From Patescibacteria group bacterium (lineage in GTDB: Bacteria > Patescibacteriota > Patescibacteriia > UBA11705 > JABHMO01): a DNA stretch of 40,281 nucleotides. Location of the stretch: contig JAHIRY010000017.1 in NCBI GenBank assembly GCA_018818405.1, forward strand, positions 71,563-111,843. The letters run 5' to 3'. The notes beneath the pieces are model-generated. The model saw only the letters and a list, made by a program, of their open reading frames with translations. It was not told the DNA's origin and ran no database searches. Below are positions 12,640 to 40,183 of the stretch, in pieces. Both the position numbers and the translations under genes were made by a program. The first letter of the stretch is position 1. Every line of letters begins with the position of its first letter.

Positions 12640-13293
12640 TTATTTTTTCTCCACAATAACCACAAATTCTCCTTTTGGTTTTACCTGTTTCAAAATTTCC
12701 TCCACGCTCCCGCGATAAACGGTTTCAAACTTTTTTGTCATTTCTCTCGCGACAACAACTTTTCTCTCAGGCTCCAAATAATTTTTCATTTCTTCCAATG
12801 TTCTCAATATTCTGTGAGGCGATTCGTAAAACGCGACCGTGTATTGCGAATTTTTTATTGCTTCAAAAATTTTACCTTTGCCTTTGTGAGGCATGAAACC
12901 GAGAAATACAAATTTGTCAGTGGGAAATCCGGCGATGCTCAACGCGGAGATGACAGCTGAAGCGCCGGGAATCGGAAAAACATTTTTGCCCAGTTCAATC
13001 GCCTTTGCCACGAGCTTGTTTCCCGGATCGGAAATTCCCGGAGTTCCTGCATCTGAAATGTAAGCGATATTTTTGTATTCATTCAACATTCGCAAAATTT
13101 TTTCATCTGATGAATGCTGATGCAGGCTGATCATTTTTTTTTCAATTTGATAATGATCAAGCAATTTTTTCGACTGCCGGGTATCCTCGCACAGGACAAC
13201 ATCAACGCTTTTCAAAACATTAATCGCCCTAAAAGTAATGTCTTCCAGATTTCCGATCGGCGTGGCTACCAAATATAAATTTTCATTATTCAT
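12640..13293 (-). CDS. rsmI: 16S rRNA (cytidine1402-2'-O)-methyltransferase
   Basis: The protein is about 217 residues from the ATG at 13293 (a TTG at 13311 would add six). It begins LYLVATPIGNLEDITFRA, with CEDTRQSKKLL and YISDAGTPGISDPG, all diagnostic of RsmI in the tetrapyrrole-methylase fold. It methylates the ribose of C1402 in the decoding centre of 16S rRNA using S-adenosylmethionine. It is shorter than E. coli RsmI (286) because the C-terminal extension is missing. First gene of the rsmI-nudix-metG-tatD group. Confidence 0.95.
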   Translation of the reverse strand: MNNENLYLVATPIGNLEDITFRAINVLKSVDVVLCEDTRQSKKLLDHYQIEKKMISLHQHSSDEKILRMLNEYKNIAYISDAGTPGISDPGNKLVAKAIELGKNVFPIPGASAVISALSIAGFPTDKFVFLGFMPHKGKGKIFEAIKNSQYTVAFYESPHRILRTLEEMKNYLEPERKVVVAREMTKKFETVYRGSVEEILKQVKPKGEFVVIVEKK

Positions 13294-13316
13294 AAATTTA
13301 TCAATTATCAACTAAA

Positions 13317-13350: not shown

Positions 13351-13379
13351 TTGACAAACGAATTAGTATAGATTATATT
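13351..13379 (+). promoter_or_regulatory. Promoter of short transcript 1
   Basis: TTGACA (13351-13356), 17-base spacer, TATATT (13374-13379). The expected start site is about 13386. Confidence 0.75.
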
Positions 13380-13385
13380 TTACTT

Positions 13386-13473
13386 ACATCCGTTGGGGGT
13401 CGCATCTCCCCCCGGCAGACTCTCTTCTCTTAGCCCTAGAACGACCACGGTCGGATCTAGGGCACTTTTTTTT
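13386..13473 (+). ncRNA. Candidate small RNA 1 (about 88 nt)
   Basis: A consensus promoter lies just upstream and no open reading frame with a start signal is present. The predicted RNA has a GGGGG/CCCCC hairpin near its 5' end. It ends in a very strong terminator: GCCCTAGA with inner CGACC pairs with GGTCG and TCTAGGGC, followed by eight T. The loop region (AGAACGAC...) closely matches the terminator of the next unit, suggesting duplication. Not matched to a known RNA family by eye. Confidence 0.6.
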
Positions 13474-13543
13474 GAGGGAAAGGCGCTGTTTGCAATTCAT
13501 TGACTTGTAATTACAAAATAAATCAACACAAACTCACTACTGA

Positions 13544-13572
13544 TTGACAACCTTGTTAATTTACTATATATT
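13544..13572 (+). promoter_or_regulatory. Promoter of short transcript 2
   Basis: TTGACA (13544-13549), 17-base spacer, TATATT (13567-13572). Confidence 0.75.
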
Positions 13573-13578
13573 TGAATC

Positions 13579-13640
13579 ACGCTTCTCCAGCGGGGTCATC
13601 GCCTCAGAACGACAACTGTCGTATCTGAGGCACTTTTTTT
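13579..13640 (+). ncRNA. Candidate small RNA 2 (about 62 nt)
   Basis: Same design as the preceding unit. A consensus promoter leads to a short RNA ending in GCCTCAGA + CGAC pairing with GTCG + TCTGAGGC, followed by CACTTTTTTT. The hairpin shares AGAACGAC, GTCG and the GGCACTTTTTTT end with unit 1, but the outer stem has changed with compensating substitutions, a sign of conserved pairing. No reading frame is apparent. Confidence 0.6.
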
Positions 13641-13672
13641 AAAACTATATTTCCTTTGATGAGATCTTGTTA

Positions 13673-13701
13673 TTGACAAATTAAAGAATAAATGATATCA
13701 T
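13673..13701 (+). promoter_or_regulatory. Promoter of short transcript 3
   Basis: TTGACA (13673-13678), 17-base spacer, TATCAT (13696-13701). The expected start site (about 13708) falls at the 5' strand of a stem. Confidence 0.7.
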
Positions 13702-13706
13702 ATAGT

Positions 13707-13814
13707 TGAGCCTGCAATTCTCGCGGTAACTGCAGAAAAGGAGGAAAGGTCATGAGACTCATAGCTCCCGGCTCATCAACATCGCGCTGTCCAAAAGGAT
13801 GGCGCGTTTTTTTT
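13707..13814 (+). ncRNA. Candidate structured RNA 3 with an enclosed ribosome-binding site
   Basis: About 107 nt. The very 5' end TGAGCC (13707-13712) pairs with GGCTCA (13770-13775), closing a loop with a small CTGCA/TGCAG hairpin, an AGGAGG (13739-13744) and an ATG (13752). A 10-pair terminator (13783-13806, AAAA loop, eight T) follows. The frame from the ATG runs through the terminator and stops only at 13838, so a terminated transcript would lack a stop codon. Either the RNA is non-coding with a decoy-like Shine-Dalgarno sequence, or it is an attenuator for a short peptide. Function unknown. Confidence 0.5.
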
Positions 13815-13936
13815 ATTTTTTTCCAATTTAAAATCTGAATATTTTATTAAATTTTGCATCAATTCTTTTGATAGAATGTATTAGCTAAATTTAGACAATT
13901 ATTTCTTAAATTCAACGACACCCCTTGTTATGCTAG

Positions 13937-13965
13937 TTGACAATATTTTAATAATATGCTATAAT
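13937..13965 (+). promoter_or_regulatory. Perfect consensus sigma-70 promoter
   Basis: TTGACA (13937-13942), 17-base spacer, TATAAT (13960-13965), with a TGC extended -10. It is the best promoter in the window and drives the large RNA candidate. Confidence 0.85.
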
Positions 13966-13971
13966 AATCTT

Positions 13972-14589
13972 TCACAAGCATTCACGCCGTCAGCATAAGC
14001 CGGCGGCGAAAGGAGAATGTGATGGCAGAGGAGGGTCAGAGGAAGCGGACAGGCTGACAGTCGCCTGTAGCGTGGATGAAATGAAGACTGTCCGGCGTAT
14101 CATGCGCGAGGATTGAGCTGACCGGGGGTGGGAAAGGGAAACCGAGTACCATGATCTAGTCAGTCAGCGGAGAGATCCGTGAATCGATCCTCCCCTGCGA
14201 GTGGGAACATTCGCAGGACGCCGAAGGCCAACGGCCAAAAAAAGCATGAAAGAACCTGAAGCGCGGACCAGTTGACCGCGCCGGCATTCGCAGGCAGTAC
14301 ACTTGCGAATTGTCGTGCAATCCAGGAAATGCTTGAGCGCTGGCTCTCAACAGGAGTCGCCGTACCTGGATTTCAGTACATTTCAAAAAACCCCAAAAAA
14401 AAAGGAGGGCGAGCATGCGCTTCGCGCCATGCTACAACTTCTACTAAGGTGGGAAACCGGGCGCGGACCGTATTCGGTCTGGGCTAAGGCGACGGACAAG
14501 GGTTCTGACAGGACTGATGCCCGCGCTCGGTTCCATCACCGCCCAACGAGACGCCGATCTGCAGTAGCAGGCTGGCGTCTTTTCTTTTT
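13972..14589 (+). ncRNA. Candidate large structured RNA (about 615 nt)
   Basis: This GC-rich stretch stands out from its AT-rich surroundings. It starts at a perfect promoter and ends at a strong terminator (AGACGCC..CTGC / GCAG..GGCGTCT, T tail). Many helices are readable: CGGACAG or GACAGTC (14046-14061) with CTGTCCG/GACTGTC (14086-14094), CCTGCGA/TCGCAGG (14194-14217), GCGCGG/CCGCGC (14261-14281), ATTCGCA/TGCGAAT (14286-14310), AATCCAGG/CCTGGATT, GCATGCGC/GCGCATGC with a bulge, and an 11-pair ACCGGGCGCGG/CCGCGCTCGGT (14456-14466 with 14521-14531). Only tiny reading frames occur, including a 10-codon one at 14414 after AGGAGG. RNase P, tmRNA and SRP RNA landmarks were looked for and not found. 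Confidence 0.6.
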
Positions 14590-14633: not shown

Positions 14634-15491
14634 ATGACTTCAACTCGCAATAAAACGATTTTTGTAGAAAAAAATGATGCAAAGCACTTCCCTATTTTTC
14701 GTTTGCCAGCGATTACAGAAAAACAAAACAATGATTTCTTCAATAAAATTTATTTCGGCGACAGTATCGTTGAAATTAAAAAACTTCCAACTGATTCCGT
14801 TGATTTGATTGTGACTGATCCTCCGTACACGATTCGAAGAAATTTCGGTAGCGGAACAATTTCAACAAACGAAAAAAAATTTGCCGACTGGTGCGAACGC
14901 TGGATTTCGGATTGCGCGAGAATTTTAAAACAAAACGGTTCCATCTACATTTGCATCAATTGGGAAGCTTCTTCAATAATTGAATCAATTCTAAAAAAAC
15001 ATTTCATTATTCAAAATAGAATCACCTGGAAGCGCGACAAAGGACGCGGCGCGAAAAAAAATTGGAAAAACAACTTGGAAGACATCTGGTTCGCGACAAA
15101 GTCGGATGATTACACTTTCAATTTAAATTCAGTGAAAATAAAAAAAACGGTTATTGCTCCGTATGTTGACAAATCGGGAAAACCGAAAGATTGGATTGAA
15201 AAAAACGGCGAAAAATTCCGCTACACCCACCCGTCAAACATTTGGACCGATCTGGTGGTTCCATTCTGGTCAATGCCGGAAAACACGGAACATCCGACGC
15301 AAAAACCGGAAAAACTGATTGAAAGAATAATTCTGGCAAGTTCCAATGAAAACGATTTGGTATTTGATCCGTTCATGGGATCGGGAACAACAGCGGTTGT
15401 CGCGAAAAAACTAAAACGAAATTATCTCGGATTTGAAATCGAAAAAAAATTCTATATTCTGGCGCAAAAACGATTATCATTAACAAAATAA
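14634..15491 (+). CDS. Site-specific DNA methyltransferase (N4/N6 type, beta class)
   Basis: This 285-residue protein carries the catalytic motif DPPY (residues 62-65) ahead of the AdoMet-binding motif FDPFMGSGT (244-252); that order marks the beta class of N6-adenine/N4-cytosine methyltransferases. The region between, with a lysine-rich segment around WKRDKGRGAKKNWKN, should hold target recognition. PSNIWTDLV and EHPTQKPEKL are typical supporting motifs. No restriction endonuclease is nearby, so it seems to be an orphan enzyme that may mark or regulate DNA. It is followed by the pyrophosphatase gene after two bases. Confidence 0.93.
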   Translation: MTSTRNKTIFVEKNDAKHFPIFRLPAITEKQNNDFFNKIYFGDSIVEIKKLPTDSVDLIVTDPPYTIRRNFGSGTISTNEKKFADWCERWISDCARILKQNGSIYICINWEASSIIESILKKHFIIQNRITWKRDKGRGAKKNWKNNLEDIWFATKSDDYTFNLNSVKIKKTVIAPYVDKSGKPKDWIEKNGEKFRYTHPSNIWTDLVVPFWSMPENTEHPTQKPEKLIERIILASSNENDLVFDPFMGSGTTAVVAKKLKRNYLGFEIEKKFYILAQKRLSLTK

Positions 15492-22799: not shown

Positions 22800-23249
22800 T
22801 TAACGAAACAACGACATCTGCTCAGTGTATAATTGCTTATAATTTTTCAAACCCTGATTCTTTATATAATTACTTATACTATTCTCATTCCCCCGTTGCC
22901 CTGCCGTATTTACAAAATATCCATCAGACCAAAATTCTCCACCCCACAATTATTTCTTTACCTCAGGACAACTCTTAAATATCTCTCTCGCTGTTATACT
23001 TTTTATTGTTTGTACTATCTTTTTAGCACTATACATCGGCACAGACTGCACGAAAAAATGAACATGATTCTTGTCCGTACCAATTTCCATAAATCTTATC
23101 TCATATCTCTTGCTTATCTCTAAACAGACTTTCTTTAACTCCGCATCCACTTCTTCCAACTCGAAAACTGAACTCCTGTATTTTGCCGGACATACAAAAT
23201 GATATAACAGAACCGACACATTATGAATTTTATGTAGATATTCGCTCAT
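22800..23249 (-). pseudogene. tnpA: IS200/IS605-type TnpA (Y1 transposase) broken by an in-frame stop
   Basis: The frame from the ATG at 23249 encodes an HUH single-strand transposase: YHFVCPAKYR, then the HUH metal site in NHVHFFVQS. A TAA at 22950-22952 then stops it. Reading on in the same frame gives 49 more family-like residues (LWGGEFWSDGYFVNT...) to the next stop at 22800. The catalytic tyrosine (in DGYFVN) is therefore lost from the truncated product, so the gene is almost certainly inactive. A Gln codon (CAA) is the likely ancestor of the TAA. Confidence 0.88.
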
Positions 23250-23262
23250 CCCTCCATTGTAC

Positions 23263-23295
23263 CACTTACGCAGCAAGCCGCGGGGAATTTACCCC
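23263..23295. repeat. Left-end palindromic sequences of the IS200-like element
   Basis: Contains CGCAGCAAGC (shared with 22780-22789) and the GGGG-AATTTA-CCCC hairpin. It lies upstream of tnpA on the minus strand and directly abuts the integrase fragment, marking the element boundary. Confidence 0.55.
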
Positions 23296-23298
23296 AAA

Positions 23299-23805
23299 GC
23301 GATTAAATATGTGCCTAAACTTGTGGAAAATAAGCAATATTACCAATTTACAGCCATTGACTGCGCTACTCGATGGCGATATTTGGAAATCTATGATGAC
23401 CACTCCAACCTTTCATCAATAAAATTTTTAGAGAAAGTAATATCGATAGCTCCCTTTAGAATAAAAGCGATCAAAACAGACAATGGCAGTAATTTTACCA
23501 ATCGCTACACCGGTTATTTGAAAAGTTCTGATCCGATAAATCCTAAATTGCATGAATTGGATATTGTTTGTCAAAAATATAACATTATCCACTACCTCAT
23601 TGATCCGGGCAAACCCGCTCAAAATGGCAAGGTGGAACGTAGCCACAGATCAGATCAAGAGATATTTTACAACCGCGTGATGTTTACTAACTTACTTGAA
23701 CTTAACCGCAAAATTAAAATTTGGAATAAGCAATATAACAACTTAGAGCATTGCGGTCTTAATGGTAAAACACCAAACGAAATGTTAAAATTATTAACAA
23801 ACTAA
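23299..23805 (+). pseudogene. N-terminally truncated DDE integrase/transposase (IS481-like rve domain)
   Basis: Homology-like sequence begins at IKYVPKL (about 23302) with the rve core: YYQFTAIDCATRWRYL, IKTDNGSNFTN (second Asp), PAQNGKVERSHR (Glu) and a C-terminal NGKTPNEML. The N-terminal helix-turn-helix half and the first catalytic Asp, which would precede IKYVP, are absent; the upstream frame is IS200-end sequence. This is a transposase remnant, probably cut by insertion of the IS200-like element or a linked deletion. Confidence 0.85.
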
Positions 23806-24974: not shown

Positions 24975-24996
24975 TTAAAAAGCGTTTGGTTCATGG
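24928..24996. repeat. 69-bp tRNA-flanking hairpin repeat, copy 1
   Basis: CCATGAACCAACGC pairs with GCGTTTGGTTCATGG (one bulge) around a loop of about 30 bases, directly after the tRNA CCA end. It differs from the copy at 27412-27480 at three positions. Confidence 0.8.
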
Positions 24997-25068
24997 TGCT
25001 CTCGGGCGGAATCGAACCACCATCGTATCCTTAGGACGGATCCGCTCTATCCATTGAGCTACGAGAGC
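24994..25068 (-). tRNA. tRNA-Arg (anticodon CCT)
   Basis: A full cloverleaf is readable on the minus strand: acceptor GCTCTCG/CGAGAGC, D arm GCTC/GAGC, anticodon loop GTCCTAA with CCT at 25033-25035, T arm with GGTTCGATTCC, and an encoded CCA. It reads the rare AGG codon. Confidence 0.95.
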
Positions 25069-27411: not shown

Positions 27412-27480
27412 GGCTCGCCATGAACCAACGCAAACTTCACTTATCGTCCATTCTCAATTTAAAAAGCGTTTGGTTCATGG
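27412..27480. repeat. 69-bp tRNA-flanking hairpin repeat, copy 2
   Basis: Near-identical (three differences) to 24928-24996 and in the same place relative to a tRNA-Arg gene. The long stem directly follows the encoded CCA. Confidence 0.8.
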
Positions 27481-27552
27481 TGCCCCCGGCAGGAGTCGAA
27501 CCTACGTATCCGGCTTAGAAGGCTGGTGTTCTATCCGTTGAACTACGGGGGC
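27478..27552 (-). tRNA. tRNA-Arg (anticodon TCT)
   Basis: The minus-strand cloverleaf has acceptor GCCCCCG/CGGGGGC, D arm GTTC/GAAC, anticodon loop CTTCTAA with TCT, T arm GGTTCGACTCC and an encoded CCA. It reads AGA and probably AGG. Confidence 0.95.
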
Positions 27553-40107: not shown

Positions 40108-40183
40108 GCAGCCGTGGCTTAATGGATAGAGCATCTGGCTTCGGACCAGAGGGTTGGGGGTTCGAGTCCCTCCGGCTGCACCA
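40108..40183 (+). tRNA. tRNA-Arg (anticodon TCG)
   Basis: The cloverleaf has acceptor GCAGCCG/CGGCTGC, D arm GCTT/GAGC, anticodon stem TCTGG/CCAGA around CTTCGGA with anticodon TCG, T arm GGTTCGAGTCC and an encoded CCA. It is the third tRNA-Arg in the window. Confidence 0.96.

Follow-up and report, generated by a model that had tools for sequence, protein, structure and literature searches.

A structured orphan RNA with candidate mini-ORFs in the rsmI-methylase gap of a Candidatus Falkowbacteria genome

The gap between a probable rsmI gene and a DNA methylase gene in an uncultured Candidatus Falkowbacteria genome (1.06 Mb) was found to hold a predicted transcript, here called RNA4, which appears to form one complete transcription unit with a promoter and a terminator at its two ends. 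The reading that we favour, with slightly less than even confidence, is that RNA4 is a structured, independently transcribed and dual-function RNA specific to the Falkowbacteria lineage, which also engages ribosomes. RNA4 would then be transcribed independently and would probably be abundant and stable, its folded body would serve in its own right, as RNA, in the part of a regulator or scaffold, and one or both of its Shine-Dalgarno (SD)/mini-ORF sites would recruit ribosomes to give a peptide of 10-11 residues. The RNA half of this reading is proposed because of the transcription unit, the fold and the recurrence of the locus, and the peptide half because of SD enrichment and the RYP codons seen in relatives. 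We infer the expression, stability and translation of RNA4, and any role of the RNA or its peptides, from the DNA sequence.

The window, meaning the whole stretch of DNA that was analysed (40,281 nucleotides), corresponds to G000:C40:71563-111843 of the host genome. RNA4 was the last of four tandem units in the gap, each with a terminator hairpin and a promoter matching 11 or 12 of the 12 consensus positions. The features of the gap were as follows.

12640-13311, minus strand: flanking gene of the tetrapyrrole-methylase family, probably rsmI, used as locus anchor
13351-13475, plus strand: RNA1, about 90 nt (13386-13475), with promoter 13351-13379 and a terminator hairpin within 13430-13463
13544-13642, plus strand: RNA2, about 65 nt (13578-13642), with promoter 13544-13572
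13673-13815, plus strand: RNA3, about 105 nt (13708-13815), with promoter 13673-13701 and terminator 13783-13806
13937-13965, plus strand: sigma-70-type promoter of RNA4, TTGACA-17-TATAAT with extended -10 TG, matching the consensus at 12/12 positions
13972-14589, plus strand: RNA4, about 612-618 nt, structured, with its start placed by the position of the -10 box
13985-14008, plus strand: 5' hairpin CGCCGTC/GGCGGCG, pair probability 1.00
14009-14015, plus strand: Shine-Dalgarno 1, AAAGGAG, 6 nt before ATG
14022-14057, plus strand: mini-ORF 1 with SD-ATG start, MAEEGQRKRTG (11 aa)
14108-14192, plus strand: long helical domain of 9 + 6 pairs plus inner hairpins, pair probability 0.94-0.96
14194-14217, plus strand: 10-pair hairpin CCTGCGAGTG/CATTCGCAGG, pair probability 1.00
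14287-14309, plus strand: 8-pair hairpin TTCGCAGG/CTTGCGAA, pair probability 0.98
14402-14408, plus strand: Shine-Dalgarno 2, AAGGAGG, 6 nt before ATG, preceded by an A-rich run that is mostly unpaired in the predicted fold
14415-14447, plus strand: mini-ORF 2 with SD-ATG start, MRFAPCYNFY (10 aa)
14548-14589, plus strand: predicted intrinsic terminator-like hairpin (14548-14581) followed by a T-rich tract
14634-15491, plus strand: flanking N6/N4 DNA methylase gene, used as locus anchor

An earlier note, made from the sequence of the window, had described an RNA of about 615 nt with the best promoter of the window and a strong terminator. The promoter and terminator delimited a transcript of about 612 nt, in agreement with that description, and the promoter was the sole exact TTGACA-17-TATAAT in the window. 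Although its rank as the best promoter of the window stands, such a promoter is not rare, as TTGACA-N16-18-TATNAT occurred at 40 sites in the host genome against one for the reversed control pattern, and many of these near-consensus promoters lay upstream of ordinary genes or rRNA (16S, 23S). The terminator-like hairpin, which a simple scan missed, had a predicted energy of about -21 kcal/mol with the T-rich tract TTTTCTTTTT directly 3' of it. The G+C richness described earlier was likewise apparent, RNA4 having 56% where the window has 40% and the upstream 500 bases have 33%; of all stretches of about 619 bases in the window, the one richest in G+C started at 13951. Elsewhere in the window, all three tRNA genes were tRNA-Arg (24994-25068, CCT; 27478-27552, TCT; 40108-40183, TCG), and adjoining frames at 22950-23805 resembled, as judged by eye, an IS200-type transposase fragment and an integrase-core fragment, probably insertion-sequence remains.

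The minimum free energy of RNA4 was -251 kcal/mol, with z-scores of -4.8 from 20 shuffles and -5.4 from 40. As the reverse complement reached only -2.0, the folding excess is strand-specific. Pairing prediction gave fourteen helices of 5-10 pairs with a pair probability above 0.7, spread along the entire length; ten of them had 6-10 pairs, more than the seven stems that had been the minimum claimed.

The Rfam search that the earlier note had proposed was run. Using Rfam 15, no match to the sense strand of RNA4 could be obtained at the gathering score or with thresholds relaxed up to E = 5, and the relaxed search of the region returned weak, irrelevant minus-strand matches only. BLASTN against 5 genomes of the family, 10 of the order and 381 of the class, and against phages and plasmids, found no homologue; the matches returned were promoter fragments or stretches of about 20-40 bases only. 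The two long frames (116 and 86 aa) had no Pfam match, and no convincing coding ORF was recognised. Together, the predicted transcription unit, the fold and the Rfam negatives support an independent structured transcript without a match in the Rfam families. The suggestion of a new RNA class in the OLE/ROOL sense was not supported, since searches of the family, order and class gave no sequence homologue of RNA4, which makes it an orphan; what recurs is an architecture and a locus, not a sequence. Literature searches brought up no account of large RNAs in Falkowbacteria or CPR, or of SD micro-ORFs in them.

The host genome also contained two other RNAs of this kind, each of about 450 nt, which are orphan, G+C-rich and structured and lie behind a consensus promoter.

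G000:C28:27187 onward: L093 (L093 1530-1985), ending in GCGCCCTGAATTTTTTTTT
G000:C28:36131 onward: L095 (L095 1530-1965), upstream of a mutL-like start

These two RNAs had z-scores of -6.5 and -6.7, respectively, and neither had an Rfam match or a homologue among the 381 class genomes. The promoter scan also yielded short RNAs, and these did keep relatives across genera. They serve as a rough positive control, indicating that blindness of the method does not by itself explain why the large RNAs lack relatives. One, of about 60 nt (L055 1501-1600; L212, minus strand, from 190), read GTTGATGRTAGG...AAATYCC...GAnAACTC-hairpin-GGAGTTTTT and was conserved in the host genome and in a sister genus, the changes between the two being apparently paired. 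Another, conserved downstream of a promoter in three genomes (L094, L074, L189), read ACTACGAAA...CCC-hairpin-GGGGGCT followed by a T run. No Rfam match was found for L055 or L094.

The two SD/mini-ORF sites of RNA4 and the three other tandem transcripts go beyond what the earlier note had listed. With two strong SD/ATG mini-ORFs, RNA4 may not be purely noncoding. Nine SD-ATG mini-ORF sites occurred in 18 transcripts compared to 0.77 expected from dinucleotide shuffles (maximum 4 in 500), although the set (window transcripts, sister loci, L093 and L095) was partly picked by eye and the exact enrichment probability is therefore unreliable. In the predicted fold the SD guanines of both RNA4 sites were mostly paired, which could mean that translation is gated or that the sites are unused. 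RNA3 also carried a perfect SD and, at 13752, an ATG whose frame reached the terminator without a stop codon; in the predicted fold this SD was paired with a CUCC. RNA3 is possibly a non-stop or gated mini-message.

These sites bear on the strongest alternative, according to which RNA4 is a purely noncoding, large ornate RNA similar to OLE, ROOL or GOLLD, acting as a scaffold or an RNA-only assembly, with the SD-like purine runs being incidental. We regard this as rather unlikely. The size of RNA4, its strong promoter and strong fold would fit, no SD mini-ORF was found in the sibling RNAs L093 and L095, and ROOL, GOLLD and OLE show that large RNAs can function as RNA assemblies (PMC12286853). 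However, RNA4 belongs to no Rfam family and lacks the wide conservation of those RNAs, and the SD-ATG enrichment across the transcript set speaks against incidental purine runs.

Mini-peptides of the form M-x-x-R-Y-P and 10-12 aa in length were encoded at the sister loci of two genera (G002 and G001): MCSRYPVGVY, MRERYPVDEVRP and MCKRYPSWFT. The RYP codons of these three mini-ORFs (CGC TAC CCC, CGC TAC CCA and CGG TAT CCG) differed only at synonymous third positions, which hints weakly that the peptide is under selection. The motif was absent from both RNA4 peptides. Scanning 381 genomes for an SD followed by MxxRYP gave 11 matches compared to 3 for the reversed control; few were mini-ORFs, and most of the nine matches outside this family did not resemble true further cases. 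L237 (MHPRYPHN, with an SD and a terminator following) looks like such a case and was kept as a lead. L236 (MKHRYPD) was rejected as a probable coincidence, being antisense between two genes and beside a radical-SAM gene. The minus strand of L236 1480-1640, which belongs to a different class genome, may encode a small RiPP-like precursor (MKTAEVTPSPKKHKKARRIRLAAQKPRTSCQSG) beside a radical-SAM-like gene, as judged by eye.

The synonymous changes in the sister mini-ORFs and the perfect SDs would also suit an mRNA for a micropeptide, whose product would be the peptide, with the long structured untranslated regions serving only to stabilise it; other strong-promoter orphan transcripts of the host genome (L005, L092) do encode small proteins. 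We consider this unlikely, as the mini-ORFs make up only about 11% of RNA4, predicted helices run along the whole molecule, its peptides are not recognisably conserved, and long RNAs without mini-ORFs exist.

The rsmI-methylase neighbourhood was retained in four related genomes (G003, G009, G008 and G005), and a remnant was present in three (G001, G002 and G004). The contents were as follows.

G003 gap: two transcripts, about 180 and 295 nt
G009 gap: a transcript of about 490 nt, a small membrane-protein gene and a transcript of about 200 nt
G008 gap: several ORFs and a transcript of about 230 nt
G005 gap: 52 bases only, no RNA
G004 remnant: a transcript of about 340 nt
G002 remnant: transcripts of about 980, 485 and 190 nt
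G001 remnant: transcripts of about 107, 242 and 638 nt, beside a HAM1-like gene

These related Falkowbacteria usually had strong-promoter, G+C-rich, structured transcripts at this place, many with a perfect Shine-Dalgarno and a mini-ORF. Eight of the nine large RNAs tested, RNA4 included, folded better than their shuffles (z -3.9 to -16), and the ninth (242 nt) gave -2.1. Short-word BLASTN among the locus transcripts found no common sequence except in the transcript ends of G003/G004 and in RNA1/RNA2, and no word of 9-11 bases was common to three or more of the large RNAs. RNA2 proved to be a paralogue of RNA1 in its 3' part (80% over 45 nt), and the terminator stems of the two differed by compensatory changes (CCCTAGA..TCTAGGG in RNA1, CCTCAGA..TCTGAGG in RNA2); no relatives of either RNA were found elsewhere among the sequences compared. 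A search with the methylase anchor gave distant homologues in other phyla (GTDB contigs) and in two more class genomes.

The variability of the locus, together with the outlying G+C content and the absence of homologues, could point to a neutral or selfish G+C-rich insertion of foreign or decayed DNA that came to lie behind a promoter by chance. This explanation appears improbable, because RNA4 has both a promoter and a terminator, its folding excess is confined to one strand, sister genera share the architecture, and no protein-gene remnant was present. A strongly diverged housekeeping RNA (tmRNA, SRP RNA, 6S or RNase P), for which the size in the RNase P/tmRNA range would be suitable, is highly improbable, as ARAGORN and Rfam were negative for RNA4 even at relaxed thresholds and RNase P RNA, normally encoded by one gene per genome, was found above the cut-off on another contig (G000:C12:1972-2389, 101 bits, RF00010).

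The occurrence of unrelated RNAs of the same build at one chromosomal spot in sister bacteria suggests a class of large RNAs with fast turnover. More broadly, and tentatively enough that we would call it doubtful, Falkowbacteria and perhaps other Patescibacteria of the class may possess a category of large structured RNAs, so far undescribed and evolving very fast, which have consensus promoters and are located in hot spots such as the rsmI-methylase gap. What unites such RNAs would be their architecture rather than their sequence: a strong fold, a perfect SD, an ORF of 5-14 codons that is often M-x-x-R-Y-P, and a strong terminator hairpin. Loss of dispensable DNA is expected in genome-reduced Patescibacteria, yet here at least 1 kb per genome is spent on highly structured RNAs with consensus promoters, for which not even sister genera have relatives. 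Homology-based RNA discovery relies on covariation and would, if these RNAs are real, be blind to them; they might also supply micropeptides in organisms thought to depend on a host.

RNA4 would work much as large ornate or dual-function RNAs do. Among known systems, OLE, ROOL and GOLLD share with RNA4 a length of several hundred nucleotides, a predicted independent transcript, an extensive predicted fold and the absence of a long ORF. The likeness to OLE and ROOL noted earlier holds for size, predicted independent transcription and predicted fold, but does not extend to membership, since no Rfam covariance model of OLE, ROOL or GOLLD matched; RNA4 is moreover an orphan, lies outside a phage or tRNA-island context and has SD mini-ORFs. 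Similar to tmRNA, RNA4 is structured with an internal short reading frame, but it has SD-preceded starts and neither ARAGORN nor Rfam detected a tmRNA or a tRNA-like domain in it. The dual-function regulatory RNAs SgrS/SgrT, RNAIII and VcdRP combine structure and a short SD-preceded ORF in one independent transcript (PMC8672173, PMC4021124), as is predicted for RNA4; unlike them, RNA4 is longer than most and its peptides have only 10-11 aa, with two per RNA.
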